Shown: piece by piece, positions 8,985-49,370 of the stretch
How positions within the stretch are numbered: position 1 is the stretch's first letter
How the letters are laid out: each line of letters opens with the position of its first letter
Assembly (NCBI GenBank): GCA_003574885.1
Contig: PJFC01000009.1
Coordinates: forward strand, 1 to 64,000
Reading direction: 5' to 3'
DNA: 64,000 bases
From: Geobacter sp.
GTDB lineage: Bacteria; Desulfobacterota; Desulfuromonadia; Geobacterales; Geobacteraceae
The notes under the pieces: model-generated
Told to the model about the DNA's origin: nothing
Databases searched by the model: none
Seen by the model: the letters and a program-made list of their open reading frames with translations, nothing else
Translations under genes and position numbers: made by a program

Positions 8985-9085
8985 GTTTGACCTCCTTGTG
9001 AATTCTCGGTCCTGATCGGATCAATTTGCAATAAACCTAACCCCTTCACTATAACGCCACACTTTCTCCATCGCAAACCCTACCC

Positions 9086-24504: not shown

Positions 24505-24957
24505 ATGGACCAATTCATGGCAGCAGCAGTGGCCGAGGCGAAACAGGGGCTGGCCGAAGGGGGTATCCCCATCGGTTCGGTGCTTGTCCACAAAGGGACG
24601 ATCATCGGGCGGGGCCACAACCGCCGAGTGCAGCAAGGTAGCGTAATTCTTCATGGCGAGATGGATGCTCTGGAAAACGCCGGACGACAACCTGCAGAAG
24701 TTTACCGTGATGCCGTTCTCTACACTACCCTCTCCCCCTGCGCCATGTGCAGCGGTGCCATAATCCTCTATGGCATTCCCCGGGTCGTCGTTGCGGAGAA
24801 CAGGACATTCATGGGAGAGGAAGAGCTGCTTAACTTTCGGGGCGTGGCCGTAGAGGTGCTACAGGATGAAACCTGCATTGCCCTGATGAACGACTTCATC
24901 AGGTTGAACCCCGAATTGTGGAACGAAGATATCGGGGTTTCAAAGGAAAGCCCATAA
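24505..24957 (+). CDS. Cytosine deaminase-like enzyme (yeast FCY1 type)
   Basis: This 150-aa zinc-dependent deaminase has ligands in HGEMDALEN (HxE, about residue 50) and SPCAMCSGA (PCxxC, about 78). Its sequence is strikingly like the small fungal cytosine deaminase: EGGIPIGSVLV, GRGHNRR, LHGEMDALENAGR, YTTLSPCAMCSGAI, YGIPR, and the WNEDIG C-terminal end are all in the same order. Cytosine to uracil is therefore the likely reaction, unlike the unrelated E. coli CodA. GGAGG precedes the ATG. The next gene is a second deaminase, 35 bp downstream, likely in the same operon. Confidence 0.85.
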   Translation: MDQFMAAAVAEAKQGLAEGGIPIGSVLVHKGTIIGRGHNRRVQQGSVILHGEMDALENAGRQPAEVYRDAVLYTTLSPCAMCSGAIILYGIPRVVVAENRTFMGEEELLNFRGVAVEVLQDETCIALMNDFIRLNPELWNEDIGVSKESP

Positions 24958-24992
24958 GTTTCCCTCATTTTGCATAACCCAGCGAGGACATC

Positions 24993-25646
24993 ATGTATCT
25001 GCCTGAAATAGCCATTCGTTTACCTGCCTGGGTCAAGCCCTTTCTTGACGGACAGCCGCAAATATTCCCCTCGCGGGAGGATCGGATGCGGCTGACGATC
25101 GGGCTTTCCAATCTCAATGTGCTCCATGCCAGCGGTGGTCCTTTCGGTGCGGCAGTCTTTGATAAAGCGGGAAGACTGGTAGCGCCAGGAATGAATTTGG
25201 TAGTCAGCTCCGGCTGTTCCCTTTTCCATGCAGAGACTGTAGCGCTGGCCTTTGCTCAGAAGGTGCTGGGGCGCTATGACCTTGGCGCCGGGGGAACACT
25301 GCAGTACGAATTGTATGCCTCAACCGAACCGTGTGCCATGTGTTTTGGAGCCATCCCCTGGTCCGGGGTGAGCGCACTATTCTGCGGGGCGCGGAGTGAG
25401 GATGCCCGAGCTGTTGGTTTTGATGAAGGGGACAAGCTTGGCGACTGGACAGCTTCGCTTGAGAAACGGGGGATCAAGGTGGAATTGGATCTGTTGCGGC
25501 TGGAGGCGGTAGCGGCGCTACAGGATTATGCATCTTCTGGTGGAGAGCTCTACAATCCTCGGAATCCAACTCCCCGTATGCCACCTACCCCACCGCATCG
25601 GCCACCCCCGGGGGGGAAAGAGGAGGGGGATGAACCGACCAAATAA
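24993..25646 (+). CDS. Nucleoside/base deaminase of the CMP/dCMP deaminase superfamily
   Basis: This 217-aa protein has the same zinc motifs: FHAETVAL (HAE, about residue 77) and STEPCAMCFGAI (PCxxC, about 112). It is longer than the first deaminase and has GPFGAAVFD, typical of guanine-deaminase or tRNA/adenine-deaminase relatives; the exact base is not clear. GAGG lies upstream of the ATG. The last 30 residues are Pro-rich (PTPRMPPTPPHRPPPGG) and look like low-complexity tail rather than domain. Co-directional with the cytosine-deaminase-like gene; a purine/pyrimidine salvage unit is inferred. Confidence 0.75.
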   Translation: MYLPEIAIRLPAWVKPFLDGQPQIFPSREDRMRLTIGLSNLNVLHASGGPFGAAVFDKAGRLVAPGMNLVVSSGCSLFHAETVALAFAQKVLGRYDLGAGGTLQYELYASTEPCAMCFGAIPWSGVSALFCGARSEDARAVGFDEGDKLGDWTASLEKRGIKVELDLLRLEAVAALQDYASSGGELYNPRNPTPRMPPTPPHRPPPGGKEEGDEPTK

Positions 25647-26217: not shown

Positions 26218-26222
26218 GTTTT

Positions 26223-26270
26223 TTATGGCGTCCCCGAGACGATTCGAACGTCCGGCCCCTTCCTTAGGAG
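26223..26270. other. Left attachment site: 3' fragment of tRNA-Arg(CCU)
   Basis: 48 bp that match 49291-49338 at 46 positions. It is the 3' part of tRNA-Arg(CCU) on the minus strand: anticodon loop, 3' anticodon stem, variable loop, T arm, acceptor 3' strand and CCA. The two differences are the two partners of one T-stem base pair. Confidence 0.9.
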
Positions 26271-26432: not shown

Positions 26433-26475
26433 TGCCGTGCTTGGCTGCCATTCCTGGCCGACTACGGAGTACTCC

Positions 26476-27747
26476 ATGAAAATCACAAGATTTACGGACA
26501 AGATGATTCAGAACCTCAAACGCAGCAATCGCAAGTACATGCGTGGTGAAGGTTATGGTTTTAACATCCGTGTAACACCATCAGGCTCCAAAACGTGGCT
26601 TTACATTTACACATTCGACGAAAAGCGGAAGGAGCTAAATCTCGGCGGGTATCCAGAGGTGACCCTTGAAACAGCGCGAAGCAAATTCGAGGAGGCAAGA
26701 AAACTGGTTAAAAACGGCATTGATCCTTCAGCGGCAGCAGAACAGGCCAAAGAGGAACGTCGGAAGACCCCTACAGTTGATGACCTCATTTCGGAATATA
26801 TTGCTCGGCATGCTAAGGTCTTTAAGAAGTGCTGGGAGGAAGACGAACGTCTATTAAGAAAAGAGATCAGCCCGGACTGGGGTAAGAAAAAAGCAGTTGA
26901 GATAACAAAACGCGACGTGATTCTTCTGCTTGAAAAAATCGTAGACCGTGGTTCGCCTGCGATGTCAAACCAAGTTCTTAAAATAGCACGTAAAATGTTC
27001 AACTTTGCTATAGAACGTGACATTCTGCAGCACACCCCATTTTTTCGCGTCAAGGCCCTTGCACCAAACACCCGCCGCGAGCGCAACTTGACTGAAGCTG
27101 AGATCAAGACCTTTTGGTCAAGTATCGAAGATGCCGCCATGAGCGATGAGATCAGGCGGGCGCTCAAACTGGTACTTGTGACAGCTCAAAGGCCTGGGGA
27201 GGTGTCGGGAATACACCCACGGGAGATTGACGGTCGTTGGTGGACTATACCGGCAGAGAGAGCCAAGAATGGGCAGGCGCATCGCGTATATTTGACGGAT
27301 ACGGCGCTAGAACTTATTGGGGACACCAAAGGAGAGGGTTTTATTTTCCCCTGCCCCCATAAAAAGAAAGAGAAGCCAATTGATTCGCACGCCTTGCCAG
27401 TTGCTGTACGCCGCAATATTAAATGGCCTTTGATCGATAAAGATGGTTCTCCGCTCCATGGTAAGAGCGGGGAACCAGTCACAGAGAACAGGTTTAAGAT
27501 TGAGCCGTTCACTCCCCACGATCTTAGGCGCACGGCCTCAACCTTCATGGGCGAATTAGGATTCATCGATGAAGTAATCGATGCTGTCCTTAATCATGTC
27601 AAGTCCGGTATGATCGGCATATATAATCGCTACAAATATGACAAAGAAAAACAGGAAGCGCTTGAATCATGGGAGCGCAAATTGCTCGGTATCATCACCG
27701 GCAAGAGGTGCAACGTAATCCCCCTCACCAGGGCGTTCGTGTCATAG
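26476..27747 (+). CDS. int: Tyrosine recombinase / island integrase (P4 type)
   Basis: This 423-aa protein has the DUF4102-type N-terminal domain of P4-like integrases (RVTPSGSKTWLYIY; LGGYPEVTLETAR), a core-binding domain (about 95-195) and a catalytic domain with Arg in TAQRPGEV (about 237), HDLRRT (about 349), His in LNH (about 373) and the Tyr in GIYNRY (about 382). It catalyses excision and integration at the tRNA-Arg att site. The ATG at 26476 has GGAG upstream and lies just inside the left att site; an in-frame start 13 codons earlier has no Shine-Dalgarno. All catalytic residues are present, so it should be active. Confidence 0.92.
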   Translation: MKITRFTDKMIQNLKRSNRKYMRGEGYGFNIRVTPSGSKTWLYIYTFDEKRKELNLGGYPEVTLETARSKFEEARKLVKNGIDPSAAAEQAKEERRKTPTVDDLISEYIARHAKVFKKCWEEDERLLRKEISPDWGKKKAVEITKRDVILLLEKIVDRGSPAMSNQVLKIARKMFNFAIERDILQHTPFFRVKALAPNTRRERNLTEAEIKTFWSSIEDAAMSDEIRRALKLVLVTAQRPGEVSGIHPREIDGRWWTIPAERAKNGQAHRVYLTDTALELIGDTKGEGFIFPCPHKKKEKPIDSHALPVAVRRNIKWPLIDKDGSPLHGKSGEPVTENRFKIEPFTPHDLRRTASTFMGELGFIDEVIDAVLNHVKSGMIGIYNRYKYDKEKQEALESWERKLLGIITGKRCNVIPLTRAFVS

Positions 27748-29968: not shown

Positions 29969-30421
29969 TTAAAACCCTGTGAAAGGCCCTGGTATTGTTT
30001 GAGCTTCCAAGAGGAGCCTGCTGAAGGTATCTTTCTGTTTCATCATCTGGTCGATACTGGCCTTGAAGTGGGCCAGCTCGGTCTTCGGGAAGGAGAATTT
30101 CTGGGTGTCGATGACGTTAAGGAGTTCGCCGCTATCCTGGTCGTATCGTAGATTGTCCTTCAGGGGGCCGAAGAACAGGCTGATCAGGCAGGTTTCAGCG
30201 ATATTCTCCGATGCCCCCCAGATGTCTCCCCCATGATAGGCGATGGCCTTCTCGGGTTTTCTATCCCGCCTCTTAACCAGAATGTATTCTTCCGGTTTCT
30301 CAAGCATCATCACCAACGACTCAGCGAACAGGAAGAACTGCTGCTGGTGCGGGTTTACCATGAGTAACCCGAGACGTCCCTGCCTCCACTGGATTTGTCC
30401 GTAAGACCTCGATTCCATCAT
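29969..30421 (-). CDS. PolB-operon small protein 3, unknown
   Basis: This 150-aa protein is not recognised. It has a beta-type start (IQWRQGRLGLLMVNP), a helical SLVMMLEKPEEY, and a C-terminal helix TELAHFKASIDQMMKQ. The layout (strand, then 'F-x-MLE' helix, then strand and Phe/Ala-rich helix) parallels the two other small proteins of the operon. It overlaps the preceding gene by 4 bp (ATGA), so it is translationally coupled. It is the last gene of the operon. Confidence 0.7.
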   Translation of the reverse strand: MMESRSYGQIQWRQGRLGLLMVNPHQQQFFLFAESLVMMLEKPEEYILVKRRDRKPEKAIAYHGGDIWGASENIAETCLISLFFGPLKDNLRYDQDSGELLNVIDTQKFSFPKTELAHFKASIDQMMKQKDTFSRLLLEAQTIPGPFTGF

Positions 30422-31050
30422 TTGCCCTGCTGTACCATGTCGTTAGTTGCGTCAATATCGTAAGGATCAAGCGGGTTTAGTGGCACATCGAATGCTTTCC
30501 ACCCATCGAACGCTGCAATCATTGATTCCAGGGTGTCGGCGTTGGATATCTGCGCCTTGGCGGCTAGGTAGAAAGCGGTCATGTCCTTTCTGTCGATGTA
30601 ATAAACATCGAAAAGAGCGATGTCGGATGGCCCTCTGATGATACGACCTGAAACCCCTTGAATGATGGTGATAGCGGAACACTGGGCATTGATGCGCCCA
30701 AGAACCTGGCCGCGTGCCGATCGCTTATCGTCCTGCTCCTGGAAGTTCTCCAGCATGATGGTCGCTGTTCGTGGGTCGTGAAGATTTTCCACCATGGCGA
30801 TGAATTTCCCGAGGTCGATGTATCGGACCATGTTTTTACCGCACGCTACGGCCAATTGCAGGCCCCGGCCAGTCCTTCGGAAGCCCATGACACCAGGTGA
30901 AAACTCCTTGCCTGGTACCGGTTGCACTTTTTCATACTCCGGTAACGTGGCAAGGTTCTTCAAACCCTGATCCAGGGCCGTTGCGTCCTTCTCGTTGCTG
31001 CCGAAGATCTCAGGTAATTGGTCGATTCCATCTTCCTTATCTTTGCTCAT
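30418..31050 (-). CDS. PolB-operon small protein 2, unknown
   Basis: This 210-aa protein has an acidic N-terminus of about 60 residues, then a folded core: LQLAVACGKNMVRYIDLGKF, MVENL, GQVLGRINAQCSAITIIQG, and FDVYYIDRKDMTAFYLAAKA. The two short overlaps (ATGA at both ends) bind it to its neighbours. It shares the strand/'F-x-MVEN'/strand/'F-x-AA' pattern with the other small proteins, so a common fold is possible. No catalytic motif is visible. Function not recognised. Confidence 0.7.
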   Translation of the reverse strand: MSKDKEDGIDQLPEIFGSNEKDATALDQGLKNLATLPEYEKVQPVPGKEFSPGVMGFRRTGRGLQLAVACGKNMVRYIDLGKFIAMVENLHDPRTATIMLENFQEQDDKRSARGQVLGRINAQCSAITIIQGVSGRIIRGPSDIALFDVYYIDRKDMTAFYLAAKAQISNADTLESMIAAFDGWKAFDVPLNPLDPYDIDATNDMVQQGK

Positions 31051-32132
31051 AACGCCTCCATGGATTGAAATATTTTGTCGAACGGATCGTGTTCAATCGT
31101 GTTTTCTGCCTTCTCTTTCAGTCGGTTGAATCGCTCTTTGTCATCTCTAAGTCGTTTTACCGCTGCATACACACATAGTGCATAGTCGATGTCGATAACG
31201 AAGGTAGCCCTGTCGCTTACAGAATTATCGGAATCTTGAAGGCAGACCACCTCGATTGTAGACCTTGCCGGAATAAACCTGCCGAAAACCTTGCCCTTCT
31301 TGTTGAGATTGAACACAAGCACTTGGCACTGTTCCCGGAATCCTGTCGTGAGGTCTGCCAGCCGGAGTGCCGTACCCTGATTTTCCAGGAGATTGACAAA
31401 ATTCCACGCCTCCATCCTGATTTTCTGGCCGTGGATGTTGACCAGGGTCACACAGAGTTCGTCATCTTCCGATGTCACGGATATCGCCGCGAGATGCTCT
31501 CTGTTTCTGGTCCCTCCCAGCACTCGAAGTACCCGATCACTCTCATCCGGGGCCATTTGCTCGATCTGGGCCTTTATCTTCTCAAGAAGATCCGGGTAGA
31601 TTGGCCCTGGATGTTGGGTTTGCAGGCGCTCAAGAAGTTGCTGGCATCGCTCATTGGGGGCAGCGTTAATAACCTTGTAGGTGATCTCGTAGGAATACTC
31701 TACCGGATTTCCAGCGTCGATCTTGAGTTCTGCCCGGACTGCATCCAGCCCGGACTTCAGCAGTTCCATCAATCTTTCTTTCTGCATTTGGGTTATCTTC
31801 CTGTAAGGGTTTTCAGTGTCAAATGTTGTTCTGGCATAGCTCCAGATGGTATCAAGCTGCATGACGATATTGCGGCTGTTGCGGCGGCTGATACGCTTAA
31901 TAACTTCCCTGTGCTGCTTCTCCCCTTGTTCCATCAGTAACGATGCCTGGTGAAAAAGTACTCCCCAACCGTTTTCAGCCGATTGGAGATCTAACGCCTC
32001 ACACAGGAGGTGAGTCCATGATACAGTTATTATCTTGATAGGGAGACTATTCCTGTTAACCCTATAGAGGCAATACGTTTCTGCGTCTCTTCTGAAAAGA
32101 TAGATATGGGGGTCTGTTCCAACGTCATCCAT
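31047..32132 (-). CDS. PolB-operon protein 1, unknown
   Basis: This 361-aa protein has an N-terminal part of mixed strands and helices (residues 1-130), a helical middle and a C-terminal domain (about 215-330) with LCVTLVNIHGQKIRMEAWNF, NLLENQ, VFGRFIPAR and FVIDIDYALCVYAAVKRL. That C-terminal pattern parallels the two smaller proteins downstream. A charged tail ends it. Overlaps the polymerase gene by 8 bp and the next gene by 4 bp. Function not recognised; no nuclease or ATPase motif seen. Confidence 0.7.
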   Translation of the reverse strand: MDDVGTDPHIYLFRRDAETYCLYRVNRNSLPIKIITVSWTHLLCEALDLQSAENGWGVLFHQASLLMEQGEKQHREVIKRISRRNSRNIVMQLDTIWSYARTTFDTENPYRKITQMQKERLMELLKSGLDAVRAELKIDAGNPVEYSYEITYKVINAAPNERCQQLLERLQTQHPGPIYPDLLEKIKAQIEQMAPDESDRVLRVLGGTRNREHLAAISVTSEDDELCVTLVNIHGQKIRMEAWNFVNLLENQGTALRLADLTTGFREQCQVLVFNLNKKGKVFGRFIPARSTIEVVCLQDSDNSVSDRATFVIDIDYALCVYAAVKRLRDDKERFNRLKEKAENTIEHDPFDKIFQSMEAL

Positions 32133-35100
32133 CGATAAGCGCCTCCAGCAGTGGCACAGGGTCCTTGTAGAGAGCTTTCGCCATCTTCTCGATCAGCTGC
32201 CTGTTGGCTGGCGTATCGTTGATACAGTGCGGGGTGAACTTGTTGTGTTTCAGCGCATAGTACTGATTACGACTTAGCCCGTAACGCTTCAGCTTTTTGA
32301 GAATTTCTGCCGTTTTTATCCCTTCGGCATTGATGTCCGGTTGCTGTAGTGCCATCACCAGATGATCCAGGCAGCGTTTCTGGGCCGGATTCCTGGGCAA
32401 GCGTTTTCTTTCCTCCGCAGGCGTGGGGGCGATCAGCAGAGCGCACTTCCCGGCATCCTTCGGCGGGAGTCCCGCCTTGTAGAATAACCGCTCAAGCTTT
32501 GCACGATCCTTCGCAGGGCGAAGCCCTGGGACGAAAGTCCCGGTCCGGTACAGTACCATCAGCCGCTCCGTAAGGTGCGGCCGGAAGGCGAGCAACAGTC
32601 CCCGTGTATCCGGGAGAAGTCTTGTATCGAACAGCTTGCGGAAAGGTTGGATGCCTAATCTTGGTCCGTGGATAATCCCTCTTACGACCTGCTCCAGGAG
32701 GGCGCTGTTCGTTTCCTCATGAACCTCTCCAGTGAATATCAGTGTCCTGACCTGCTCATGGGCGGCACCGAATTCCGCTGTTAATGTCTCCACCAGAGTA
32801 TCCAGCGTTGCGTTCGGCATAATGCAGCCCGGTTCCCAGTTTCCACGTGAGGCGCTTTGCAGGTCATTCTTGCTCCAGGTCTTCGGGTATGCCTCAGTGA
32901 GTTCCTGGGCCTCCCAGACCTTGTTCATCCTATCAGCCATCTCGGCGAAACACTCATCTGGAAGCTGCACCTGTATATGCTTCTGTACCACTCCCCGCAG
33001 AAATAGGCGAGCCACCATCAGCGGTTGGCCTCCCCGGAAACGTAACGAGTTTCCTTTGACTTGCACCCGGTGGAGAACCATCTGAGGCTGCGCGGTTTGG
33101 CCGTTCTTGCGAATCGTCTCCACCTGGCCCCGGTGAAGCAACATATCACTCACAGTCTGGTAGGGTAAGGAAAAATGCGATATTTTGCCGGTTGATTCAT
33201 CTTCAACCAGTTTCCGTTTCCAGTCGAAGTCGGTATTGATCTTGCGCTTGCTGATCTGCTTTACCATGTCCATCTGGCCGTTGCTGTCGATCATCTTCCG
33301 AAAAGTCGAAAGTGTGATGAAGGAATACGTGTCCAGGTCTTCCCGACCCTGCGCGATGCGCTCCATCTGCTTGATGATCCACTTGCTGTCCTCGGTGTTG
33401 CGGACGATTCCCCCCGCCTCCATGACTCGCCGATATTCTTCAGGATCTTCAATCTCTTCGCTCAACGGCGGCTTGTGTCCGAAGCGGGCCAGTATCGTGG
33501 CATGCTGTTCCGGGGTGTCGAGCAAGCCTATCTGTCCACGGGTCTTGACGCTGATAACCTCATCAGCCATGTTTTTTATCTCAAGGAATTCCTGCTTTTC
33601 GGTCAGCTCATATCGAGCATTGCACATCTGGCGGTTCGGCAGGTAGGCCATGATCTTCTTCATCAAGTCCGCACAACCGAACGCGTCCAGCACGTTTTCC
33701 AGGGAAATTTCCTCGCCCTCGATCAGCTCCAGCCGGTCATCCTTGCCGTCCGCTTGCTTCCACACGTAATAATCGGATGCCGTGGCGTACCCCTTCGGGT
33801 TAGGTAATCCGATGAGCAGACCATCTGTGGTCGCTGAAATTACGTGAATCTGTGAATGAGGCGTGTCCTTCCTCTCCTTGTTGTAGTCTTCAACCGCCAT
33901 TAGTGTTGCGGATAGAGCAGCACGGGCCAACCCAGTCGTAAGTGCTGCAATGTACGGCTCAGTGATGGCCGATGGTCCAAGCGATCTCATCTCGCCCGTT
34001 GTCGGCTGGTAGATACTGCGGGGGTTGATACCTTGCGCGAACTTACCGTAGAAGCTGTTGACGAATTCCTTGAGCAGTTTCTCCAGGATCTGGGATGAGG
34101 GGTTGCCTTTGTCTTTCTTGTATTTGCCGCGTTCGGTGGTCATTTCCCTGAGATGGGGGAGAAAAAATCTTTCAGGTAGCCCCGATTCATCCGTGACCAT
34201 CGGGAACGACAGGCTTGTCACGGCCTTGATCTCGGCACCGGCTTCCACGGCCAGCATGATTTCCGGTGCGGTGGCTACGGTTTCTCCCTCCAGCGGGTAG
34301 ATAAGGCCATAGCGATAATGTTTGACCGGAAGACAGGGGAAACGGGTTCCGCCGGGAAACTTGAAACGTACCCGTGCGAATCCAGGAATCGCGAACTGAT
34401 CAAGGAACTGGTACGTGCCTTTCTGGGGGTCTGGGTCTTCTGGATTCTCCAGGTTTCGCTTAAATTTTTTCCAGTCGGTCATCCAGCGCCTGATCAGTCG
34501 GTTGTCGATAACGGTCGCTTCATACCGGATTGTCGCGGCGTGGGACTTGTTTATCATCTCCCGGAGTACTCGGTTGAATGCCTCCGGTGAATACGCTAGG
34601 GCTTCTCTGGCCTCCCTGATCGCTTCAGGCGGGATGTGTTTGTCAGTCAGGATCTTCGCAATCTTATCGTCAATCTTGTAGGTGAGTGGGATGTAGTCGA
34701 ATTTACCGAAAACGTCGATCTTCGGACAGCGGGCCATGGCAGTTGGGTAACAGCCGGAATAATCCACATCGACCCAGATTCTGTCCTTGGTGGCGGGATT
34801 GTGTGTGGTGCGCCCGACAAAGTAACCTTCGTTTCTGCCACCATGGTAGGCCCGTTTGATGAGCTTATAGACTTCACTGAACTTGCCAACCAGTTCAGGC
34901 GGTAGTTGCCGTTTCTTCGGGGCTTTTTTCAAGCCGAGATGCTCTCGGTAGACCACGAATGATGGGTTCTTGCTCAGGAATCCCTCCACCCCGGCTGAAG
35001 CCAGAGTGCGGAAGAGTTTCACGATCACGCCGTTCCATATACCCTTGTCGTCCCGGTATACCAACTCGTTAAGGGATCTCTGGAGCAGGAAGAAGAGCTT

Positions 35101-35751
35101 GATGGTTACTTCCGTGTCCTTCAGCGCGTATCGCTCGAATTCCTCGGGTTGATCCCGAAGGAAAATGTTCATGTGCTCGATGTGGAACTGACTGACCGGT
35201 CTTTTTTCTTCTTCTTCATCGCCGATCAGTGAGGAGAGTTTTTTCAGGCTTTGGTGGCTGGCAGGGGCCAGGAGCATGGTATCAAAGACTTTGACCCATA
35301 CGGGGTATTTCTTTGCGATGGTGATGTCGATGAAGTCATTACCTGTCACGGGCGACCGGCGGATTAGAGTCAACTTCTTCGTGAGGTAGGGTTCATCCCG
35401 GTCGGCCAGCACGCTCCATTCCGCCGCCACGTTGTGCGACACCAGTACGACCAGAATTTTGCTCTTCTGGTGGTCTTCAGGGATGCTGCCGCCATTGACG
35501 GAGGCGATACCCAGGCCCACCAGTTCTGGCAGGGTGAGGCGTTTAGCTGCGGGTACATACTTTATGATATTTGCGCTGGTGGTGCGGGATACGGTGGCAA
35601 GCTGGTAGGAGAGGACTACATTCCGCCCCCTGGATTCATACCACTCCGCATCGATCGCCATGTAATAGACTTGATCGCAACGGTACTGGGGCTTGGGTAA
35701 CGTCTCGAAGAGATCGAAGAAGGGTTTATATGTCTCTGGGAGGTTCTGCAC
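32125..35751 (-). CDS. B-family DNA polymerase with 3'-5' exonuclease domain
   Basis: This 1208-aa protein has a DEDD-type exonuclease: Exo I MAIDAEWY (D34, E36), Exo II SHNVAAEWS (N107; E111 in place of Asp), Exo III YALKD (Y207, D211). It also has YHGGR (301-305), the linker motif of phage-type PolBs. The polymerase motifs are A VDVDYSGCYPTAM (D327/D329, Y334), B KEFVNSFYGKF (K561-N565) and C SATTDGLLIG (T641-T642-D643). More than 550 residues follow motif C, ending in a helical C-terminus. GTG start. Motif A to B is unusually long (about 235 residues), implying an insert. It is the core of a five-gene operon; a terminal-protein partner is not seen. Confidence 0.9.
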   Translation of the reverse strand: MQNLPETYKPFFDLFETLPKPQYRCDQVYYMAIDAEWYESRGRNVVLSYQLATVSRTTSANIIKYVPAAKRLTLPELVGLGIASVNGGSIPEDHQKSKILVVLVSHNVAAEWSVLADRDEPYLTKKLTLIRRSPVTGNDFIDITIAKKYPVWVKVFDTMLLAPASHQSLKKLSSLIGDEEEEKRPVSQFHIEHMNIFLRDQPEEFERYALKDTEVTIKLFFLLQRSLNELVYRDDKGIWNGVIVKLFRTLASAGVEGFLSKNPSFVVYREHLGLKKAPKKRQLPPELVGKFSEVYKLIKRAYHGGRNEGYFVGRTTHNPATKDRIWVDVDYSGCYPTAMARCPKIDVFGKFDYIPLTYKIDDKIAKILTDKHIPPEAIREAREALAYSPEAFNRVLREMINKSHAATIRYEATVIDNRLIRRWMTDWKKFKRNLENPEDPDPQKGTYQFLDQFAIPGFARVRFKFPGGTRFPCLPVKHYRYGLIYPLEGETVATAPEIMLAVEAGAEIKAVTSLSFPMVTDESGLPERFFLPHLREMTTERGKYKKDKGNPSSQILEKLLKEFVNSFYGKFAQGINPRSIYQPTTGEMRSLGPSAITEPYIAALTTGLARAALSATLMAVEDYNKERKDTPHSQIHVISATTDGLLIGLPNPKGYATASDYYVWKQADGKDDRLELIEGEEISLENVLDAFGCADLMKKIMAYLPNRQMCNARYELTEKQEFLEIKNMADEVISVKTRGQIGLLDTPEQHATILARFGHKPPLSEEIEDPEEYRRVMEAGGIVRNTEDSKWIIKQMERIAQGREDLDTYSFITLSTFRKMIDSNGQMDMVKQISKRKINTDFDWKRKLVEDESTGKISHFSLPYQTVSDMLLHRGQVETIRKNGQTAQPQMVLHRVQVKGNSLRFRGGQPLMVARLFLRGVVQKHIQVQLPDECFAEMADRMNKVWEAQELTEAYPKTWSKNDLQSASRGNWEPGCIMPNATLDTLVETLTAEFGAAHEQVRTLIFTGEVHEETNSALLEQVVRGIIHGPRLGIQPFRKLFDTRLLPDTRGLLLAFRPHLTERLMVLYRTGTFVPGLRPAKDRAKLERLFYKAGLPPKDAGKCALLIAPTPAEERKRLPRNPAQKRCLDHLVMALQQPDINAEGIKTAEILKKLKRYGLSRNQYYALKHNKFTPHCINDTPANRQLIEKMAKALYKDPVPLLEALIDG

Positions 35752-35770
35752 AATTATCTCTGAATGGTCG

Positions 35771-36793
35771 TTAAGTTGGTTCTTCCTGTAACCGTGAACA
35801 GACGTTATACAGAAACATGTAAATCCCTAGTAGCCCCTGCTTCGCCTCCGGTGCAGTTACGTCGGTATGAACGCCTTTTGAAGCTACATCATTGAGCCTG
35901 CGGGCAAAGACAGCCAGATAGTCCAACTCAGTTTTCATGAGGTCACGTGACGTGGATTTTTTGAAAGTAACTGATAAGAACTCATGCAAACGATTCAGAT
36001 ATTGTTCATCTCCCAGATCTCGCTCGGCTCCATCCGAACACTTTACAGGCTCTGTTACAGGTGGATAGAAGAAGTCAGCTGCTGCCTTGATAGCGCGTCG
36101 AACTTGTGTGAGAAGAAGTGATAGATCTTCTGGATCATTGGAGTCAATAAGCTGCGCTGCTTTCTGTAACTTGACGTACACATCATCAGAGTGCGCCTTG
36201 AAATAGTTGTTAACGTCGTTATGGATCTGATCTAAGAAACTTTTTGATTTGCTCTGGGCCTGTAATTGACGCTCAATGCGAATTGCATAGTTGAGGCATC
36301 TTGTCTTAATCCGCTCCTTGACCGTGTGAATTGCTTTGATGCGGAGTCGAATCTGTGATTTCCGGCCAGTATATCGATCCGTGAAGGCGGCAGTATCGAA
36401 CTCTCCCATTCCCGGAGGAAGTGCCAAGTCTTGAATGGAACGTTCCCACTGCTCAAGTTCGGGATTTATCTCTCCTACTGCTATGGTAAGTACATTCCTG
36501 GCATCACCATCCTCGCTTGTGCCGAGACTGTAATCGAGGGTGTGGGTATCTATCCAATAGGTAAAAGAATTTTCATACAAGAACTTTTGAGTTTCCTTCT
36601 TTAGGTGATTTGTGTCGTCATACAGAATGCGCATAAATTCCCGGTCAACAGGGTACATCTCCCGTAAAAAGATTGCAGCATATAGGTAGTCGTTGAGGTT
36701 TCTGGCTATACGAAGACATGTCATCGCGGCCTTGTCAACATGCCCGCCTTCAAGGTGCTCATAAACACGTTCAATTGCCGAAGGATAATCCAT
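35771..36793 (-). CDS. Helical protein at head of the PolB operon, abortive-infection-like candidate
   Basis: This 340-aa, almost all-helical protein has an N-terminal helical bundle (residues 1-80; KAAMTCLRIARNLNDYLYA) and a C-terminal segment RRLNDVASKGVHTDVTAPEA. That KGVH-type ending is found in several uncharacterised defence-linked proteins; a HEPN or Abi-type role is only a guess. GGAAA lies upstream of the ATG. It ends 19 bp before the polymerase GTG, so it should be part of the same transcript and could be the sensor or regulator of the polymerase module. Confidence 0.65.
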   Translation of the reverse strand: MDYPSAIERVYEHLEGGHVDKAAMTCLRIARNLNDYLYAAIFLREMYPVDREFMRILYDDTNHLKKETQKFLYENSFTYWIDTHTLDYSLGTSEDGDARNVLTIAVGEINPELEQWERSIQDLALPPGMGEFDTAAFTDRYTGRKSQIRLRIKAIHTVKERIKTRCLNYAIRIERQLQAQSKSKSFLDQIHNDVNNYFKAHSDDVYVKLQKAAQLIDSNDPEDLSLLLTQVRRAIKAAADFFYPPVTEPVKCSDGAERDLGDEQYLNRLHEFLSVTFKKSTSRDLMKTELDYLAVFARRLNDVASKGVHTDVTAPEAKQGLLGIYMFLYNVCSRLQEEPT

Positions 36794-36937
36794 GCTATTT
36801 TCCTAGATTCTCTTGTCCCACTTAGATGTAGCTACTCGCTAAGTCTTAGTCCGTCATCTGCGTGAAACTATGCTCTGATTGTCTGTTGGCGTTCTTCAGC
36901 CACTCACAAAAAAGCTGCCGATCGGCCACAAGACATG

Positions 36938-38284
36938 TCAGTGGTTTCCCGCTGTCTGAGATGACACAAAAAGCGCTGAGATATCAATATCTCCCGCCTT
37001 GGCGGCAATCAGACGTACTTTTTTTGCTTGGAGTGCGTCATGTCCATTAATTTTGACTTTGCTGTATTGACTGGCCGCAACGCCAAAGACTTTTTCCATG
37101 CGGTCAAGGAACGCGGGGCTCATTGCTTCAGGGACGACAATATCCACACGCCGGTCCGGGTGCGAACGCAAAATGTCGTTGAAGTGCTCATCAGCGTTGT
37201 TGAAAGAGTAGCCAACCACAACGATATGCTTTGCCTCCTTCACCCAGTGCGATGCCTGGCTCCAGAGCTCGATATAACGATGTGACAAGATAGGCTTCAA
37301 ACGTAGGGGAGGCACCAGCGCCGGAATGACATGTTTCTGTTGGCGTGGATCTTCATGACGGACATCTGTATTAGGTGCTACGATCTCGCGAATAAAATTG
37401 GCGGGGTCACAATCGAGAATGTTCTCAATTGGCAGGAGGTCTCTGGTGTCCATACGAACATAATCAGCTAATCCGCCGTGGAAGTAGATGGTCTGTGCAT
37501 CGCCGAGCTGGTTTTGCAGAAAAGCGGTGTAGTTAAGCGTGATGGCCCGGAGACCCTGTGGTAGCACGCCGTAGAAAGGTAGGATACCGCTGACGTGTGC
37601 CGCGATCACCTCTCGCTGTTTTGCCACGAGGTAGGCCCACAGCGCCCATGAAATATAGATGTAATTTTTGATGTCCGGCAGTTTTTCGTTGTAAAAGCCG
37701 AGGAATTTCTCGATCAGCAGGGTCTCGATATTCAGCATGTCCGCACCGAGTGCGGCGGCGACTTCGTGCCTTTCAGCAGACAGTCCCAACTTGAGAGTGC
37801 GTTTCAAAACTGTCTTGAAGGTGTCTGAGAGCGAAAGCTTGTGGATATCAAGGATCGAATCGCTGTCGATTAGGTCGTCTGCGTCGGTCGGAAAAACCTC
37901 CCGAATCAGGGCCTCCGTTTCCTCGTCAAGGATGCTGTGTTCAGCTATCGTGGCCAGTTTATTGAAAAGGCGGATAATAAGTTCGCCATGTTTCCTGACA
38001 TGTTCCTGATCCGGAGGTAGGTGCGCAATGGCCTCCTGAACGCGCTGCACCATCGCTTTCTGTTCGTGGGTTTCGCGGGTGGCGATCTTGTCCACAGCGC
38101 GAGCGATCATACTATTGAACGTGAAGCGCAGCCCTGGCAGCATATCCCTAAGGGCGTCGTCTACCGCTTTGCCGGGGCCATCTAGATAGCGAGTGACATC
38201 TGCCAGCAGGGTATTAGCGAGTGGAAAATCAATACCTCCAGTGCGGTCTACCCCTGCGCCGAGAATGAGTAACTTGTCAGTCAT
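36938..38284 (-). CDS. SIR2-like domain protein
   Basis: This 448-aa protein has the N-terminal NAD-binding pattern LLILGAGVDRTGG, a helical insert (about 45-245), then LNYTAFLQNQLG and YFHGGLADY (about 270; the HG of the SIR2 active site) and VVVGYSFNNADEHF (about 375), typical of defence-type SIR2-like proteins that degrade NAD. It follows hsdS by 29 bp with a good Shine-Dalgarno (GGAGGG), so it is probably in the R-M operon. NADase activity is inferred. Whether it belongs to the R-M module or to the PolB operon downstream (144-bp gap) is open. Confidence 0.8.
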   Translation of the reverse strand: MTDKLLILGAGVDRTGGIDFPLANTLLADVTRYLDGPGKAVDDALRDMLPGLRFTFNSMIARAVDKIATRETHEQKAMVQRVQEAIAHLPPDQEHVRKHGELIIRLFNKLATIAEHSILDEETEALIREVFPTDADDLIDSDSILDIHKLSLSDTFKTVLKRTLKLGLSAERHEVAAALGADMLNIETLLIEKFLGFYNEKLPDIKNYIYISWALWAYLVAKQREVIAAHVSGILPFYGVLPQGLRAITLNYTAFLQNQLGDAQTIYFHGGLADYVRMDTRDLLPIENILDCDPANFIREIVAPNTDVRHEDPRQQKHVIPALVPPLRLKPILSHRYIELWSQASHWVKEAKHIVVVGYSFNNADEHFNDILRSHPDRRVDIVVPEAMSPAFLDRMEKVFGVAASQYSKVKINGHDALQAKKVRLIAAKAGDIDISALFVSSQTAGNH

Positions 38285-38313: not shown

Positions 38314-39651
38314 TCAGTGTGTCTCAACCGGTCGAGTGCCGAGAATCATTTTTTCGATCTCTTTTTTCCGCTGGAGCAGCTTTTCATTGGCAGTTGTGAT
38401 GTTTGTCAGAATCACTTGCAGCTGGTCCGCAAACCTTTTTTGTACGTCCACCGGAATTTCGGGAAGTCTGATTTCGGCCAGATTCGCGTAGTACATGCGC
38501 TGTTTCACGCCGCCGACACGGTTAAAAGCTACCAGCGCGAGGAAGTAATCCGTCCTCAGTATGAGCGCCATGAAGTCATGCAGAAAACCGCCTTTCAGCC
38601 TCCATACCTGATATTCGGGACTGGTTATCGCATCCTCTGGAACTTCTGGTACGATGCCGAGCGAGCCGACATTGGCGCGTGTGGGGTTATGAAAGAACCA
38701 GTCTTTCTCTATTTTCTTGTACGGCGCGTTGAACTCTTTCCCGACCTGCATGGAGCTCAGAAAAACGCCTTCCTTGTTGTTGACCCCGTAGATGGGCCAT
38801 TCCTTTTCTGGTTCTTCCCAGGGCCTAACGGTTTCGGTGCATTCATTGGTGTAATCGCCCAACCGGATAAAGTCCGGATTTGCAGTAACGAACGCGGCGG
38901 CGCGACCGGCCTTGACATCCCATTGCTGAATATTCTCGTAATTGGCGAGGAACACCTTGGAACGAGTCACCTGGTTAAAGCCTATAGTTTGGTTGATGAG
39001 CCACGAATTGAGTTCTGCCACCAAGGCAGATAAAGCGGTTTCCGCCGATGCTCGTTCCAGTTGCGCAGCCTCCCAATACGCCACAACTTTCTGCTGGATC
39101 GGCAGCGGCGGGATTGGGACTTTAAAACCAAGGAAATCGGATTCCTTGAATCTGTTTCTGCTGATAGCTGCCGATCCAATGGATGCGGCATTCACAGCAC
39201 CAATAATTTTCTTGGTCGTTAAAAGCAGATAGATGTATGTGGGTAGAGCTATTGACTGATCTATTTCAAATTGCGGGAACTCGTTTGAAACATAAAAACC
39301 ATCCAACTCATCAGGAACTACAGCAAACGATTCCTTCCATGCAAACAGCCGGTTATAAATGATTGATCCAGGTTTTAATGGATACAGGTAGTTCGCACTT
39401 TGCTCTTTCCCTAAGACAGTTTCACGATGAAATACCCCCTCGCCATACCATCTGACTCCGGCCATTTTGTATTCGCCTTCGGGGGTAACACGCTCCTTGT
39501 TTTCAAGTTGAGCGGCAAATTTGCACACTGGTAAAAGTTGCCAGCCATCGGGCAGCTTTCCAAAGCGAAGATGAATGGATTCAGGCGTCCACTTTTCAAT
39601 TTCCGACCAGAATATACAGCTTGGCCGCCTGGAGATAGAAGCCGCCATCAT
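38314..39651 (-). CDS. hsdS: Restriction-modification specificity subunit
   Basis: This 445-aa protein has two target-recognition domains, each followed by a conserved helical region; PIPPLPIQQKVVAYWEAAQ (about 180-200) and LPEIPVDVQKRFADQLQVI near the end mark the typical 'P-I/L-P-x-P-I-Q' helix starts. It sets the DNA sequence bound by the methylase-nuclease subunit. It overlaps the nuclease-methylase gene (ATGA). Two in-frame ATG codons lie at its start; I keep the first. Confidence 0.9.
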   Translation of the reverse strand: MMAASISRRPSCIFWSEIEKWTPESIHLRFGKLPDGWQLLPVCKFAAQLENKERVTPEGEYKMAGVRWYGEGVFHRETVLGKEQSANYLYPLKPGSIIYNRLFAWKESFAVVPDELDGFYVSNEFPQFEIDQSIALPTYIYLLLTTKKIIGAVNAASIGSAAISRNRFKESDFLGFKVPIPPLPIQQKVVAYWEAAQLERASAETALSALVAELNSWLINQTIGFNQVTRSKVFLANYENIQQWDVKAGRAAAFVTANPDFIRLGDYTNECTETVRPWEEPEKEWPIYGVNNKEGVFLSSMQVGKEFNAPYKKIEKDWFFHNPTRANVGSLGIVPEVPEDAITSPEYQVWRLKGGFLHDFMALILRTDYFLALVAFNRVGGVKQRMYYANLAEIRLPEIPVDVQKRFADQLQVILTNITTANEKLLQRKKEIEKMILGTRPVETH

Positions 39652-41855
39652 TCAACCTCTCCCGCCACTGCGAATGCCTTGGGATCGGTCAGAAATTCCC
39701 GGTACCACTCCAGACAGGTCTTCTCGCAGTCCGCAGGCTGGCGGTCATTGGGGTAGAGCTCGTTCTGATCCTCATCGCCGGTGGCGGAGATACCGACCTT
39801 CTCGGCCTCGTACATGAAGATGGGGTAGTCGAAACGCTCCTTGAGCAGTTGCCGCGTCTCGGCAATCTGCCGGGTTTCCATCTCCTTCAGGTAGTCCTTG
39901 AGTTCCTTTTGCAGGGCCTTGCGCCGCTCGGCGTCCTTTGCCTGCTTGGCCGATTCGATTTCTCTGCCCAACCGCTCCAGTTCGGCCTGGATTTCGTCGG
40001 TGTACCTGGTTTCGATCTCGGATTTGGCGGCGGAATAGGTGTCGTCGAAACGCTGCTGTTCCTCTTCGGTGAATTTCTGCAGGAAGAGCAAAGAGCATTT
40101 CACACTGGCCCCGGAGCTGATGAAGGTTTCCTGCGGCAAGCTTACCACGGCGCGGAGAAAGGCCCGGTCTTCGGTGAACTCGCGCACATAAGTAAGCGAG
40201 GGGTTGTTGAAGATGCCCTCCGGCAGCACTATGCCGAGGCGGCCGCCGGGTGCGAGCAGGTCGAGGCATCGCTCAATAAATAGCACTTCAGTCTTGATCT
40301 TAGCTGTGTTGCTTTTGGGCAGGTCGAACAGGCTGGCGATGGGTTTGTTAAGCGCTGCCTTCACCCGGTTCTGAGCCTCGCGGTAGAGGTTGCCATACTC
40401 CTTCAGATAACGCTCTTCCGCCGCCGGATTCACCTTGATATCCACCTCCAGAACCTTGTCGGTGGGCTCGACGTTGGCCCCAAAAGGTGGATTGGTGAGG
40501 ATGATATCGAAACGCCCCTCGAAGATACCGTTGACGTTGAGAAAGCCGTCGTGGTGGTGGACGCCGCCGTGGCCGTCGCCGTGCATGATCATATTCATCT
40601 TGCTGGTGCGGGCCATGCGGTCGTTGGCGTCGGTGCCGTAGATGCAACGGTTAGAGAGCTTCCACAGGCGCGAGCCTTCGCGCTTCTGGTCTATGAGGGT
40701 CTGCACCTCGGTGAATTTGTCCTGAAGCTTCTTCGCCCGCTGCTCCTCGGTGAGTGACTTGTCCTTTTCGACTTTAGCCTTGAAAGTATTGTATTCGCGG
40801 TCGGCGTCGGCAAGTACCTTCTCCCGCACGATCTCAAACACGCGGATGAGAAAACCGCCCGAGCCGCTGGCCGGGTCACAGACGATCTCGTCCTCTTGGG
40901 GATCGACCATGTGAACCATGAATTCGACGATGGTGCGCGGGGTGAAAAACTGGCCAATCTCGCCCCGGAAGGTACGACCGAGGAACCGCTCAAAGGCGAC
41001 GCCCTTCACATCCTCACTGGTATCGGATAGATTGTATTTCTCCAACTCCTTGACGATGGCCTCCCCGGTGGCAGGTTTGAGGTTGATGCGCTCGTCATCC
41101 TCGAAAATTTTATCGGTGGCGTAGGCCCGCTTGGTTTCCTGAAATAGGTTGTCGAGCGGATTTTCGGCGATTTGGTTTTTGAGCACATCGACGGTGAACA
41201 GGTTGGTCTTGTTGCGCCGAGTGAGCAGCGACCGTTCCACATAGACCTTGATGAACAGCACCTTCGCGATTTCATCGAAGGCCGCCGCCGGATCTTTCTT
41301 TTCCCGGTTGCGTATGATGTTGTGGCACTTGTGCAGTAGGTCGGCGAACTCCTTTTCCTTGAAGGCGCGGAGTTTGGAGAGCAACTCCTCGATGTCCTTG
41401 TCTGAAGCGTCGCCATGAGGAATGTTCTCTATCTCTTCCGTGTAGCCGGGCACCTTGTCTTTCTTGACCCGCCAGTATTTGGTTTCCCGTGAGTTGTGGG
41501 TGACGAAAAACGGTGTGCCGCAGATGCGGGCGTAGTTTTCACCCTGACTATAGTCTTGTGGCTTGATGGTGACGTTATCAGATTTGCATTCGACGATGAT
41601 GAAGGGGGCGTTATCGTCGGCCTTGTCCTGGGTAGTGCGCCAGATAACAAAGTCCGCACGGGCGGAAGCCGAACCACGGCCAGTCAGGTCCATCTCCTCG
41701 GCGATTTGATCAATGGCAAAACTGTATTCATTAACAAGGACCAGTAAGTATTCCTGGCGTACCGTTTCTTCGGGTGTTTCCACTAACCACTTGCTTCGAA
41801 TGTGGCTCCAGATTTTCCCTTTTTTTTCATCGCGCTTAATTTGTAGCTCACTCAT
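39648..41855 (-). CDS. Fused PD-(D/E)xK nuclease - N6-adenine methyltransferase
   Basis: This 735-aa protein has an N-terminal domain like the start of type I HsdR (PEETVRQEYLLVLVNEY; catalytic D68, E89-C-K91 in VECKS), a linker, and a HsdM-type methyltransferase with SAM motif CDPASGSGGF (about 325) and catalytic NPPF (about 455). A coiled-coil C-terminal part (about 600-680) follows. With a separate HsdS and no helicase, this resembles BcgI-type IIB systems or a nuclease-fused type I M subunit. I chose the ATG at 41855, with GGAG upstream. Adenine methylation plus cleavage by one subunit is inferred from the motifs. Confidence 0.85.
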   Translation of the reverse strand: MSELQIKRDEKKGKIWSHIRSKWLVETPEETVRQEYLLVLVNEYSFAIDQIAEEMDLTGRGSASARADFVIWRTTQDKADDNAPFIIVECKSDNVTIKPQDYSQGENYARICGTPFFVTHNSRETKYWRVKKDKVPGYTEEIENIPHGDASDKDIEELLSKLRAFKEKEFADLLHKCHNIIRNREKKDPAAAFDEIAKVLFIKVYVERSLLTRRNKTNLFTVDVLKNQIAENPLDNLFQETKRAYATDKIFEDDERINLKPATGEAIVKELEKYNLSDTSEDVKGVAFERFLGRTFRGEIGQFFTPRTIVEFMVHMVDPQEDEIVCDPASGSGGFLIRVFEIVREKVLADADREYNTFKAKVEKDKSLTEEQRAKKLQDKFTEVQTLIDQKREGSRLWKLSNRCIYGTDANDRMARTSKMNMIMHGDGHGGVHHHDGFLNVNGIFEGRFDIILTNPPFGANVEPTDKVLEVDIKVNPAAEERYLKEYGNLYREAQNRVKAALNKPIASLFDLPKSNTAKIKTEVLFIERCLDLLAPGGRLGIVLPEGIFNNPSLTYVREFTEDRAFLRAVVSLPQETFISSGASVKCSLLFLQKFTEEEQQRFDDTYSAAKSEIETRYTDEIQAELERLGREIESAKQAKDAERRKALQKELKDYLKEMETRQIAETRQLLKERFDYPIFMYEAEKVGISATGDEDQNELYPNDRQPADCEKTCLEWYREFLTDPKAFAVAGEVE

Positions 41856-41885
41856 CAATTTCTCCAGCCTATATTTTTCATTAAA

Positions 41886-42722: not shown

Positions 42723-43679
42723 TTAACGCTGAAGCGGTTCGATCAACAGTGTCCATAGGTACTCTGCTGCGCCTTCTTCAGTAAGCTGTTTTGCTGGTGG
42801 GTTGCCTAAGTGTGGCATGCCGAAAGGTTTGAGATATTGTGTGTATCCATCATTTTCAGCTGAGACTGATTCATTGTATGATTCATCGGTGGTGGCGTCG
42901 GCATTACTGGAGTAGAGAATGCCGCTTGAAAAAGATGATCTGCCGCCATACCAGATTCTACAACCTGTGATCTGCCGCCCTTCACGGTAAATCTTTGCAG
43001 AGAAGTGGCGCAGATCGATGCGTGCCCCTCGCGTTTGGATGCCAGGATTCCGCCTTTCCAGTTCCCGCAGGGACTCCTCGAAGTAATTGCAGATAAAGTT
43101 GAAAGCTTCTTCGAGGAAAACATCCTGATCATGGTCGGAAAATTTCCTGGTGATTCTCAGATTGCTTGTACGAGGAGTATCTACAGTTGAGGGGTGTGAT
43201 AAAGCTGCCGGTCTGGTAGCAGGGGCAGGCGTTACTTGCATCGGAATTTCTCGCACAACTTTTTCGATGGCAGAAGTCACCTCCAGAAAGCCATCGTCAA
43301 GGGTCGGAAACTTTGTAATTGCTCTTCCATCTTTCGTTGCGGCAAGAATCTTTCCGAATGGAGCACCATGCCAGCTGCAGGGGCGTAAAATGACAGGTAT
43401 AACTACGGCCTCGCCCCGTTCATGTCTATCCATCGCTCGCTTCATTTCGATGTCATAGCAATAGTCGGATGCCAGGAAGTCAGCACTGACAAGAAGTAAG
43501 ATTATTTCGGCATCTTCAAGATGGCTGCTGATCTCATGACTGAAATCTCCGCCTGCTCCAATTCGCCGATCATGCCACGTTTCGATCAGCCCTTGTCGCT
43601 TCAAGATGGAAAGATGCTTTTCAAGCTCGTCACGTAGAGATTCATCTGCATGTGAGTAAGAGAAAAAAACTTTTGCCAT
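42723..43679 (-). CDS. TIR domain protein
   Basis: This 318-aa protein starts with a TIR domain (VFFSYSHADESLRDEL; WHDRRIGAGGDF; LLLVSADFLASDYCYDIEM). The Glu at about residue 78 takes the position of the catalytic Glu in NAD-cleaving TIRs. A variable linker follows (TPAPATRPAALSHP), then a domain of about 140 residues with no recognised family (FRKFSDHD...; YGGRSSFSSGILY). It is coupled to the 103-aa protein upstream by a TAATG overlap. A defence effector is likely; the trigger is unknown. Confidence 0.85.
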   Translation of the reverse strand: MAKVFFSYSHADESLRDELEKHLSILKRQGLIETWHDRRIGAGGDFSHEISSHLEDAEIILLLVSADFLASDYCYDIEMKRAMDRHERGEAVVIPVILRPCSWHGAPFGKILAATKDGRAITKFPTLDDGFLEVTSAIEKVVREIPMQVTPAPATRPAALSHPSTVDTPRTSNLRITRKFSDHDQDVFLEEAFNFICNYFEESLRELERRNPGIQTRGARIDLRHFSAKIYREGRQITGCRIWYGGRSSFSSGILYSSNADATTDESYNESVSAENDGYTQYLKPFGMPHLGNPPAKQLTEEGAAEYLWTLLIEPLQR

Positions 43680-47940: not shown

Positions 47941-47984
47941 TCCAAACGTATTAGCCATCTTTAGGACTATTGAAGGAGCGACAT

Positions 47985-48485
47985 ATGACCGTAATCCAGC
48001 GTCTTATCGGTGAAGAGGAGAAGATGGAAGCTACCAAAATCATCCGCCTCCGCTCAATTAAATCTGTTTTCGAGCGCCAAGTTATCCGTGAGGATGCGCC
48101 TGGATACATAATTACAACCCGGTTCACCTCTCCCCAACAGGTCTTTGAAATGTTCCTGGAGCTTCAGTGTGAAGCACGTGAGCACTTCATTGCTCTGCAC
48201 CTGGATGGAAAGAACCGGATCGTTTGTTTTGACCGAGTATCTGTTGGCAGTCTGAATCAAAGCATTGTCCACCCTCGGGAAGTGTTCAAGAATGCGCTCC
48301 TCTCCACCGCTGCATCCATTATCCTGATTCACAACCATCCAACTGGCGACCCTACCCCGAGCAGTGAAGACATACAGATCACTCAACGCCTTGTAGAAGG
48401 AGGTAAGCTGCTTGGCGTCCAGGTGTTGGATCACATCATCATCGGAGCTCAATATTTGTCGTTTGCTGAAAGAGGTCTGTTGTGA
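47985..48485 (+). CDS. RadC-like JAB/MPN domain protein
   Basis: This 166-aa protein has the JAMM metal-site motif HNHPTGDPTPSSED (about residue 116) and the preceding ALHLDGKNRIV strand, as in RadC. Short RadC proteins are common in mobile islands, and their role in DNA handling is unclear. The ATG at 47985 has AAGGAG upstream. It lacks the long N-terminal HhH part of chromosomal RadC. Confidence 0.85.
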   Translation: MTVIQRLIGEEEKMEATKIIRLRSIKSVFERQVIREDAPGYIITTRFTSPQQVFEMFLELQCEAREHFIALHLDGKNRIVCFDRVSVGSLNQSIVHPREVFKNALLSTAASIILIHNHPTGDPTPSSEDIQITQRLVEGGKLLGVQVLDHIIIGAQYLSFAERGLL

Positions 48486-48696: not shown

Positions 48697-49035
48697 ATGC
48701 GAATATCGTATGACCCGCAGGATATTCAGGAGATGGCACGTCAGGTGGCGAAGGAGATCATGCCGCTGTTGCTGGCCGAGATGCGGGCCGTTGTGAAGCA
48801 CCAGCCCACTCCAGTCTCGAAGCCGGAACAGCCCAAGGCGGTAATCACCCCGAGTGCCGCAGGCGCTGTGGTGGCGCGTACGGGGTTGAAGGCGCTCACC
48901 GGGCTCTCTCCAACGACCCTGTGGCGTATGGAGAAAAAGGGGCAATTCCCACGCCGAGTGGCGCTCTCATCCGGTCGGGTCGGCTGGATGCGTGCCGAAA
49001 TCGAGGCGTGGTTAGAAACGCGAGCAGCCGCGTAG
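48697..49035 (+). CDS. alpA: AlpA-family regulator
   Basis: This 112-aa protein has a C-terminal AlpA/MerR-like HTH (LKALTGLSPTTLWRMEKKG, FPRRVAL, GWMRAEIEAWL). The N-terminal 60 residues are an extra helix (MARQVAKEIMPLLLAEM) that ordinary AlpA proteins lack. AlpA proteins promote excision or regulate integrase genes, and it sits near the right att site, which fits. Confidence 0.85.
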   Translation: MRISYDPQDIQEMARQVAKEIMPLLLAEMRAVVKHQPTPVSKPEQPKAVITPSAAGAVVARTGLKALTGLSPTTLWRMEKKGQFPRRVALSSGRVGWMRAEIEAWLETRAAA

Positions 49036-49284: not shown

Positions 49285-49290
49285 TGTATT

Positions 49291-49338
49291 TTATGGCGTC
49301 CCCGAGTCGATTCGAACGACCGGCCCCTTCCTTAGGAG
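49291..49338. other. Right attachment site (within tRNA-Arg 3' half)
   Basis: 48 bp identical at 46 positions to 26223-26270. It ends in the anticodon loop (CTCCTAAG on the minus strand). The tRNA stays whole because the element brought a matching 3' half. Confidence 0.9.
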
Positions 49339-49370
49339 GGAAGTGCTCTATCCGGCTGAGCTACGGGGAC
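49294..49370 (-). tRNA. tRNA-Arg(CCU)
   Basis: 77 nt including encoded CCA. Acceptor GTCCCCG pairs with CGGGGAC; D arm AGCTCAGCCGGATAGAGC; anticodon arm CTTCC-CTCCTAA-GGAAG gives anticodon CCT; T arm GGTCG-TTCGAAT-CGACT. It is the integration target of the island, whose right end is its 3' half. Confidence 0.95.

Follow-up and report, generated by a model that had tools for sequence, protein, structure and literature searches.

The polymerases of pipolins (piPolBs) are marked by a K[TAS]RG motif, and a 2024 paper reportedly describes pipolins carrying defence systems, in which case the cargo side of the element described below would already be known. Pipolins also occur on plasmids, and Staphylococcus epidermidis has been named as a carrier (PMC9710591). 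The nearest working analogue of the genes studied here is found in the PolA-SSB (single-stranded DNA-binding protein) primases of staphylococcal cassette chromosome (SCC)-type elements (CcPol-MP; PMC10061031). Here, we analysed a 64,000-nucleotide stretch of Geobacter sp. DNA (contig PJFC01000009.1, positions 1 to 64,000; hereafter, the window), which carries a gene for a B-family DNA polymerase (PolB), followed by genes for three partner proteins of 361, 210 and 150 aa. These four genes are a real unit and more than a chance arrangement, since their order recurs in divergent genomes under purifying selection. The unit probably serves a pipolin-like integrative element, with exchangeable defence cargo, as its replication/priming module, a reading supported by a 23.1-kb element bounded by att sites, with an integrase and an AlpA-type gene, by the kinship of PolB with a pipolin-plasmid polymerase, by the co-inheritance of the partners, and by the exchange of neighbouring defence genes. 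The unit and the gene upstream of it are arranged as follows:

36793-35771, minus: helical 340-aa protein, intact open reading frame (ORF), outside the conserved unit
35751-32125, minus: PolB, 1208 aa, B-family DNA polymerase from the piPolB-like assemblage, with intact palm and exonuclease motifs and a C-terminal extension specific to its clade
32132-31047, minus: partner 1, 361 aa, helical N-terminal part and C-terminal domain (residues ~205-350) with homology to the other two partners
31050-30418, minus: partner 2, 210 aa, same domain, with Whirly and PUR-alpha as the top PDB matches of its model
30421-29969, minus: partner 3, 150 aa, consisting of the shared partner domain alone

All five ORFs are intact, with the coordinates, strand and spacing given in the initial annotation: the 340-aa gene is followed by a 19-bp gap and PolB, and from PolB onwards each gene overlaps the next, by 8, 4 and 4 bp, respectively. 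That annotation had read them as a five-gene operon, of which four genes are conserved together, the 340-aa gene being unlinked. It had also described three unrecognised partners and proposed a profile search of each. This search, run against Pfam, PHROGs, NCBIfam and PADLOC, gave no family match above cut-off for any of the three; they turned out to be one domain family in three copies rather than unrelated novelties. When the window was compared with its close relative L010 (see below), purifying selection was observed on all four genes of the unit, with ratios of non-synonymous to synonymous substitution (dN/dS) of 0.07, 0.21, 0.15, and 0.15. Just a handful of sites were invariant in each partner, with no obvious nuclease or NTPase motif among them.

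The searches for related loci were made on samples of genomes; a pattern-based scan, run on 84,980 genomes, reached close relatives only. A PolB search of 97 related genomes identified two further genomes, and a contig scan identified a third relative, L010 (genome G108), 93% identical in PolB. When the whole class (277 genomes) was searched with a profile of the 210-aa protein, seven genomes with eight loci were found, all beside PolB. The recurrence of the proposed gene order was thus confirmed for most of its members: PolB, then the 361-aa homologue, then the 210-aa homologue were observed together at all eight loci, and the 150-aa homologue at seven out of the eight (in L010, the contig ends within it), but the 340-aa gene was beside PolB at no other locus found, L010 included. 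Among 395 genomes of the phylum, the 361-aa profile matched solely in the window's own genome and in G514, adjoining PolB in both. Moreover, partner divergence tracked that of PolB, with r values of 0.98 and 0.93 for the 361-aa and 210-aa proteins, respectively (permutation p < 0.001). In the genomes searched, the partners were never seen without PolB, in agreement with their earlier description as obligate-looking; no recognisable partner homologue was present at the nine partner-less PolB loci examined. In viral contigs, the 210- and 361-aa profiles had no matches and the PolB profile found distant loci only.

The five-gene operon was ruled out by the unlinked position of the 340-aa gene in relatives, and this gene is variable cargo outside the conserved unit. 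Its homologues were found in four other genomes of the class, three of which are without the 210-aa gene; that of G540 lies on a different contig, and that of G126, 79% identical, has neither PolB nor SIR2 nearby. In L010, the stretch from PolB to ThsB, which in the window holds the 340-aa gene, SIR2 and its own restriction-modification (RM) genes, is replaced by Kiwa (KwaA, KwaB), another type I RM set, and an unrelated 247-aa gene.

The PolB sequence contains the exonuclease motifs I (DxE) and III (YxxxD), YxGG, motif A (DVDYSGCYP), motif B (KEFVNSFYG), and motif C (TTDG). These motifs, as well as K[TAS]RG, are retained across the eight loci, barring a few single substitutions, and the polymerase looks functional, as had been suggested. 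It is divergent: the match to Pfam DNA_pol_B_2 (8.7e-5) falls below the cut-off, and those to PHROG polymerase families are no better than 3e-6. A PolB profile of the window clade matched the polymerase of S. epidermidis pSE-12228-03 (7.6e-27), which is reported to be one of the S. epidermidis plasmid pipolins (Redrejo-Rodriguez 2017); the same profile had no significant match to the phi29 and PRD1 polymerases. In the tree, the window clade (support 100/100) fell within a group holding Staphylococcus plasmid polymerases, which also takes in integrase-associated polymerases from Aromatoleum, SZAS-77, and one viral contig. This group was separate from phi29/PRD1 (100/99), with long branches noted. 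The K[TAS]RG motif was found at all eight loci, and as KTRG in the Staphylococcus pipolin polymerase; KTRG was not found in phi29 or PRD1. On sequence grounds, PolB belongs to a divergent clade near the pipolin polymerases, and a protein-primed polymerase of the phi29/PRD1 type was ruled out by the profile search and the separation in the tree. As for the C-terminus, a first segment is common to the relatives in the group (P = 1.8e-5), and a second is clade-specific, with weak similarity (P = 0.006). Sequence searches of the PDB with the PolB and partner profiles gave nothing useful.

Some variants of the polymerase genes were also observed. At one locus of G540 (C57; L051:6447-10025), PolB is encoded in two ORFs joined as TAG/ATG, with a Shine-Dalgarno-like GAGGAGG just upstream; the break falls in an insertion between motif A and a conserved 'YIPLTY', and looks like a natural division of the gene, not a chance stop codon. 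A PolB relative on a viral contig (L024:1-3598) is followed by a 265-aa protein matching no Pfam family. On a Pseudosulfitobacter plasmid (L002:6694-13362), a related PolB is broken by IS66 and adjoins an integrase, MobC and a relaxase. Finally, L007 carries a divergent A-family polymerase (571 aa) and a 216-aa neighbour (7534-9896), about 2.4 kb from the PolB module, which may be a PolA-SSB-type pair.

To compare the partners with one another, domain-cropped profiles of 6-8 sequences each were used, with 50 column shuffles each as control. Clear similarity was found between the 361-aa C-terminal domain and the 210-aa protein (P = 4.1e-6), between this domain and the 150-aa protein (P = 1.6e-5), and between the 210- and 150-aa proteins (P = 9.7e-6), over alignments of 123-126 columns with scores of 38-44, versus a shuffled maximum of 22.7. 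An earlier comparison with 3-4 sequences had been weak, the signal becoming clear after domain cropping and with 6-8 sequences. The N-terminal part of the 361-aa protein had no match to the other partners in this comparison. At the level of these profiles, the three partners are homologous to one another. The 361- and 210-aa proteins were also modelled, as the initial annotation had proposed. Their separate AlphaFold models have a common order of elements, namely three strands, a helix, four strands and a helix. A PC4/PUR/Whirly fold had been put forward as a candidate ahead of the structure search with the 210-aa model, whose best PDB match was the Whirly protein PBF-2 (1l3a; prob 0.94, E = 7e-3), followed by human PUR-alpha (8chv; prob 0.90) and, at lower ranks, by more Whirly and PUR proteins and one MRP. 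The partners thus probably have, as modelled, a PUR/Whirly-type single-stranded DNA (ssDNA)-binding fold. This fold is considered probable rather than established, because the 210-aa matches are weak (E = 7e-3, TM ~0.3-0.4, model pLDDT 65) and the 361-aa whole-chain model had no significant structural match, with PBF-2 at rank 35. No sequence similarity to solved PUR/Whirly members was detected by Pfam or PDB-sequence searches, and a viral fold library searched with the 210-aa protein gave nothing convincing.

The element that carries the module is delimited by the following features:

26221-26270: attL, 50-bp direct repeat (48/50) of the 3' half of tRNA-Arg(CCT)
26437-27747, plus: tyrosine-recombinase integrase (Pfam Arm-DNA-bind_3, 8.8e-22; Phage_integrase, 5.4e-14)
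47970-48485, plus: RadC-like JAB protein (Pfam, 2.6e-44), common to two other elements (49-56%)
48697-49035, plus: AlpA-type regulator/excisionase adjoining attR (Pfam Phage_AlpA, 5.4e-11)
49289-49338: attR, inside tRNA-Arg(CCT) (49294-49370, minus)

Together, attL and attR bound 23.1 kb; about 170 bp inward from attL is the start of the integrase. The RadC gene and the small genes of 45.9-48.5 kb recur in the G540 elements. In two of the three congeners, a match to the left flank of the window (~25.66-25.71 kb) is at most about 60 bp away from the tRNA-matching region, versus 23.6 kb in the window. In the third, the tRNA is present with other sequence to its left, and the left flank of the window was not found. 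The 23-kb element is absent at the tRNA-Arg of the congeners, but there is no clean empty site, because other short inserts are present there. Another partial tRNA-Arg copy was observed in one congener (L060:5423-5467), and this second copy suggests that tRNA-Arg, as it appears, is an insertion hotspot. Among the island genes scanned, we found no Cas1 (Pfam), no phage structural gene (some small ORFs lying outside the scan), and no recognisable terminal-protein gene, terminal proteins being poorly conserved. By the genes scanned, the element is neither a phage nor a casposon, as stated initially. Two adjacent deaminase-family genes lie just outside it (24505-25646).

Inside the element, the genes beyond the 340-aa gene correspond to defence cargo:

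36938-38284, minus: SIR2-like protein (PADLOC SIR2 models, best 1.3e-4)
38314-39651, minus: type I RM specificity gene
39648-41858, minus: type I RM methyltransferase gene
42723-43679, minus: ThsB-like TIR protein (PADLOC, 1.2e-122), 94% to its counterpart in a related element

Defence genes were close to the module at five loci: the window (ThsB, SIR2, type I RM), G108 (ThsB, type I RM, Kiwa), G040 (BREX), G514 (type III RM and GmrSD), and G540 C57 (type I RM homologues). This is as expected for cargo, and these genes are exchangeable cargo. The 340-aa protein has weak similarity to AbiTii, and its gene lies 144 bp downstream of the SIR2-like gene (35771-38284). The two may possibly form a two-gene defence system; the 79% homologue mentioned above is without SIR2 nearby.

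At the other loci, the module is accompanied by the following genes:

G514: D5_N helicase, Toprim primase (overlapping polB), PolB, 361, 225, 154
G553: integrase, D5_N helicase, PolB (two pieces), 366, 221, 156
G540 C57: integrase, PolB (two ORFs), 353, 237, ParB
G540 C98: integrases, PolB (three pieces), 346, 254, 146, ParB
G040 and G095: ParB divergent from the module; at G040, AlpA next to ParB/module

An integrase directly precedes polB at both G540 loci and is near it at G553, and ParB adjoins the module at G040, G095, and both G540 loci. The D5 helicase, Toprim primase, integrase, and ParB neighbours are genes that serve mobile elements in replication and maintenance. Two mutually homologous genes with no assigned family lie directly before PolB (L012:9145-10008 and L007:11557-12360), and a distant relative of these is divergently upstream of the integrase in G540 C57. 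The gene upstream of the module at G040 and G095 (287 and 267 aa, respectively) had been suggested by eye to be a DDE/IS481 remnant, for which there was no Pfam support.

In an element replicating in this way, the integrase would excise the element as a circular form, and PolB would start DNA synthesis without a terminal protein and copy the circle. The three paralogous partners might act by holding and presenting the single-stranded template or by binding the polymerase, in a role likened to that of the OB-fold SSB subunit that serves the PolA-SSB primases of SCC elements, and a helicase could be supplied by the element (a D5 helicase is present in two relatives) or by the host. More specifically, we tentatively propose, at somewhat less than even probability, a multi-subunit piPolB-type replisome, i.e., a self-priming B-family counterpart of the PolA-SSB primases, complexed with three PUR/Whirly-type ssDNA-binding subunits. 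Several observations weigh against a pipolin-like replication module, in addition to the weak fold matches. No helicase, primase or ParB was found among the genes scanned in the window element, whose integrase is 2.2 kb from the module and not operonic. The partners of the window are slightly acidic (pI 4.9-6.3), at least five of the eight loci are near defence systems, and the 'piPolB-like' label rests on the Staphylococcus plasmid polymerase.

The initial annotation had offered two options, an unusual self-replication module or a polymerase-based defence system. The former fits the integrase, D5 helicase, Toprim primase, and ParB found beside the unit elsewhere. The latter, in which PolB would make DNA, or copy or sequester invading DNA, with three accessory proteins, was drawn from the neighbourhood and appears unlikely. 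Indeed, defence genes are close at five loci, and reverse-transcriptase defence with untemplated synthesis exists (AbiA/AbiK; PMC11077055). However, neither PolB nor any partner had a PADLOC match, near-identical copies have exchanged the genes immediately preceding PolB, the few invariant sites of the partners show no obvious signature of the nuclease or NTPase kind, and at three loci PolB is split into several pieces while partners are still present. This reading was demoted from first choice because a D5 helicase, primase, integrase, and ParB are the direct neighbours of the module in relatives.

It is quite unlikely that PolB is instead a primer-dependent replicase, extending primers made by a Toprim primase of the host or element, with the partners as processivity or ssDNA-coating factors. 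The retained exonuclease motifs are consistent with this, as is G514, where the Toprim primase and D5 helicase lie directly upstream of polB; however, no primase was found at the other loci examined, and both the kinship with the piPolB-like group and the distribution of the motif (K[TAS]RG at all eight loci; KTRG in the Staphylococcus pipolin polymerase and not found in phi29 or PRD1) speak against it. It is very improbable that the window holds a mere remnant, decaying or domesticated, of an element that has lost its mobility and activity: PolB is in pieces at G540 C98, G553 and the SZAS-77 relative (L014), and is broken by IS66 in L002, but the window genes are intact, with dN/dS of 0.07-0.21 versus L010, as are the att sites and integrase.

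Compared with known systems, PolB resembles the protein-primed polymerases of phi29 and PRD1 in belonging to the B family, in its exonuclease and YxGG-type motifs, and in the long insertion that separates motif A from motif B, but differs in its profile match, its position in the tree, and the lack of a recognised terminal-protein gene. The partners share with the PUR-alpha/Whirly/MRP superfamily the top structural matches of the 210-aa model and the strand-helix order of the 361-aa C-terminal domain and 210-aa protein, although sequence similarity to solved members is undetectable and the structural E-value weak. As with the PolA-SSB primases, an element-borne DNA polymerase adjoins small, beta-rich, ssDNA-binding-like proteins, with a D5/COG3378 helicase and a recombinase nearby; those systems have an A-family polymerase, one partner of OB fold and a large serine recombinase, whereas a B-family polymerase, three partners of modelled PUR/Whirly-like fold and a tyrosine recombinase are found here. 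The polymerase-SSB primase idea would become directly testable in a second polymerase family. In the open-access literature, which leaves most subscription papers out of scope, we found no description of such partner proteins, and the partner family is the new part.

With pipolins (PMC7385651, PMC9710591), the element shares the polymerase assemblage, a tyrosine integrase, att direct repeats at a tRNA, an excisionase-like gene, and a mosaic cargo with polB as the constant gene. The initial contrast with pipolins was too sharp, since PolB has a relative on a pipolin plasmid and, like a pipolin, the element is att-flanked with a tyrosine integrase; the differences are the three paralogous partner genes tied to polB and the clade-specific C-terminal extension, along with the tRNA-Arg(CCT) target and, in relatives, the D5 helicase, Toprim primase or ParB. 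The element would be another integrative vehicle for exchangeable defence genes and, if this polymerase clade always has ssDNA-binding-like paralogues, and sometimes a D5 helicase, pipolins would be extended from a single-enzyme curiosity to an element replisome.

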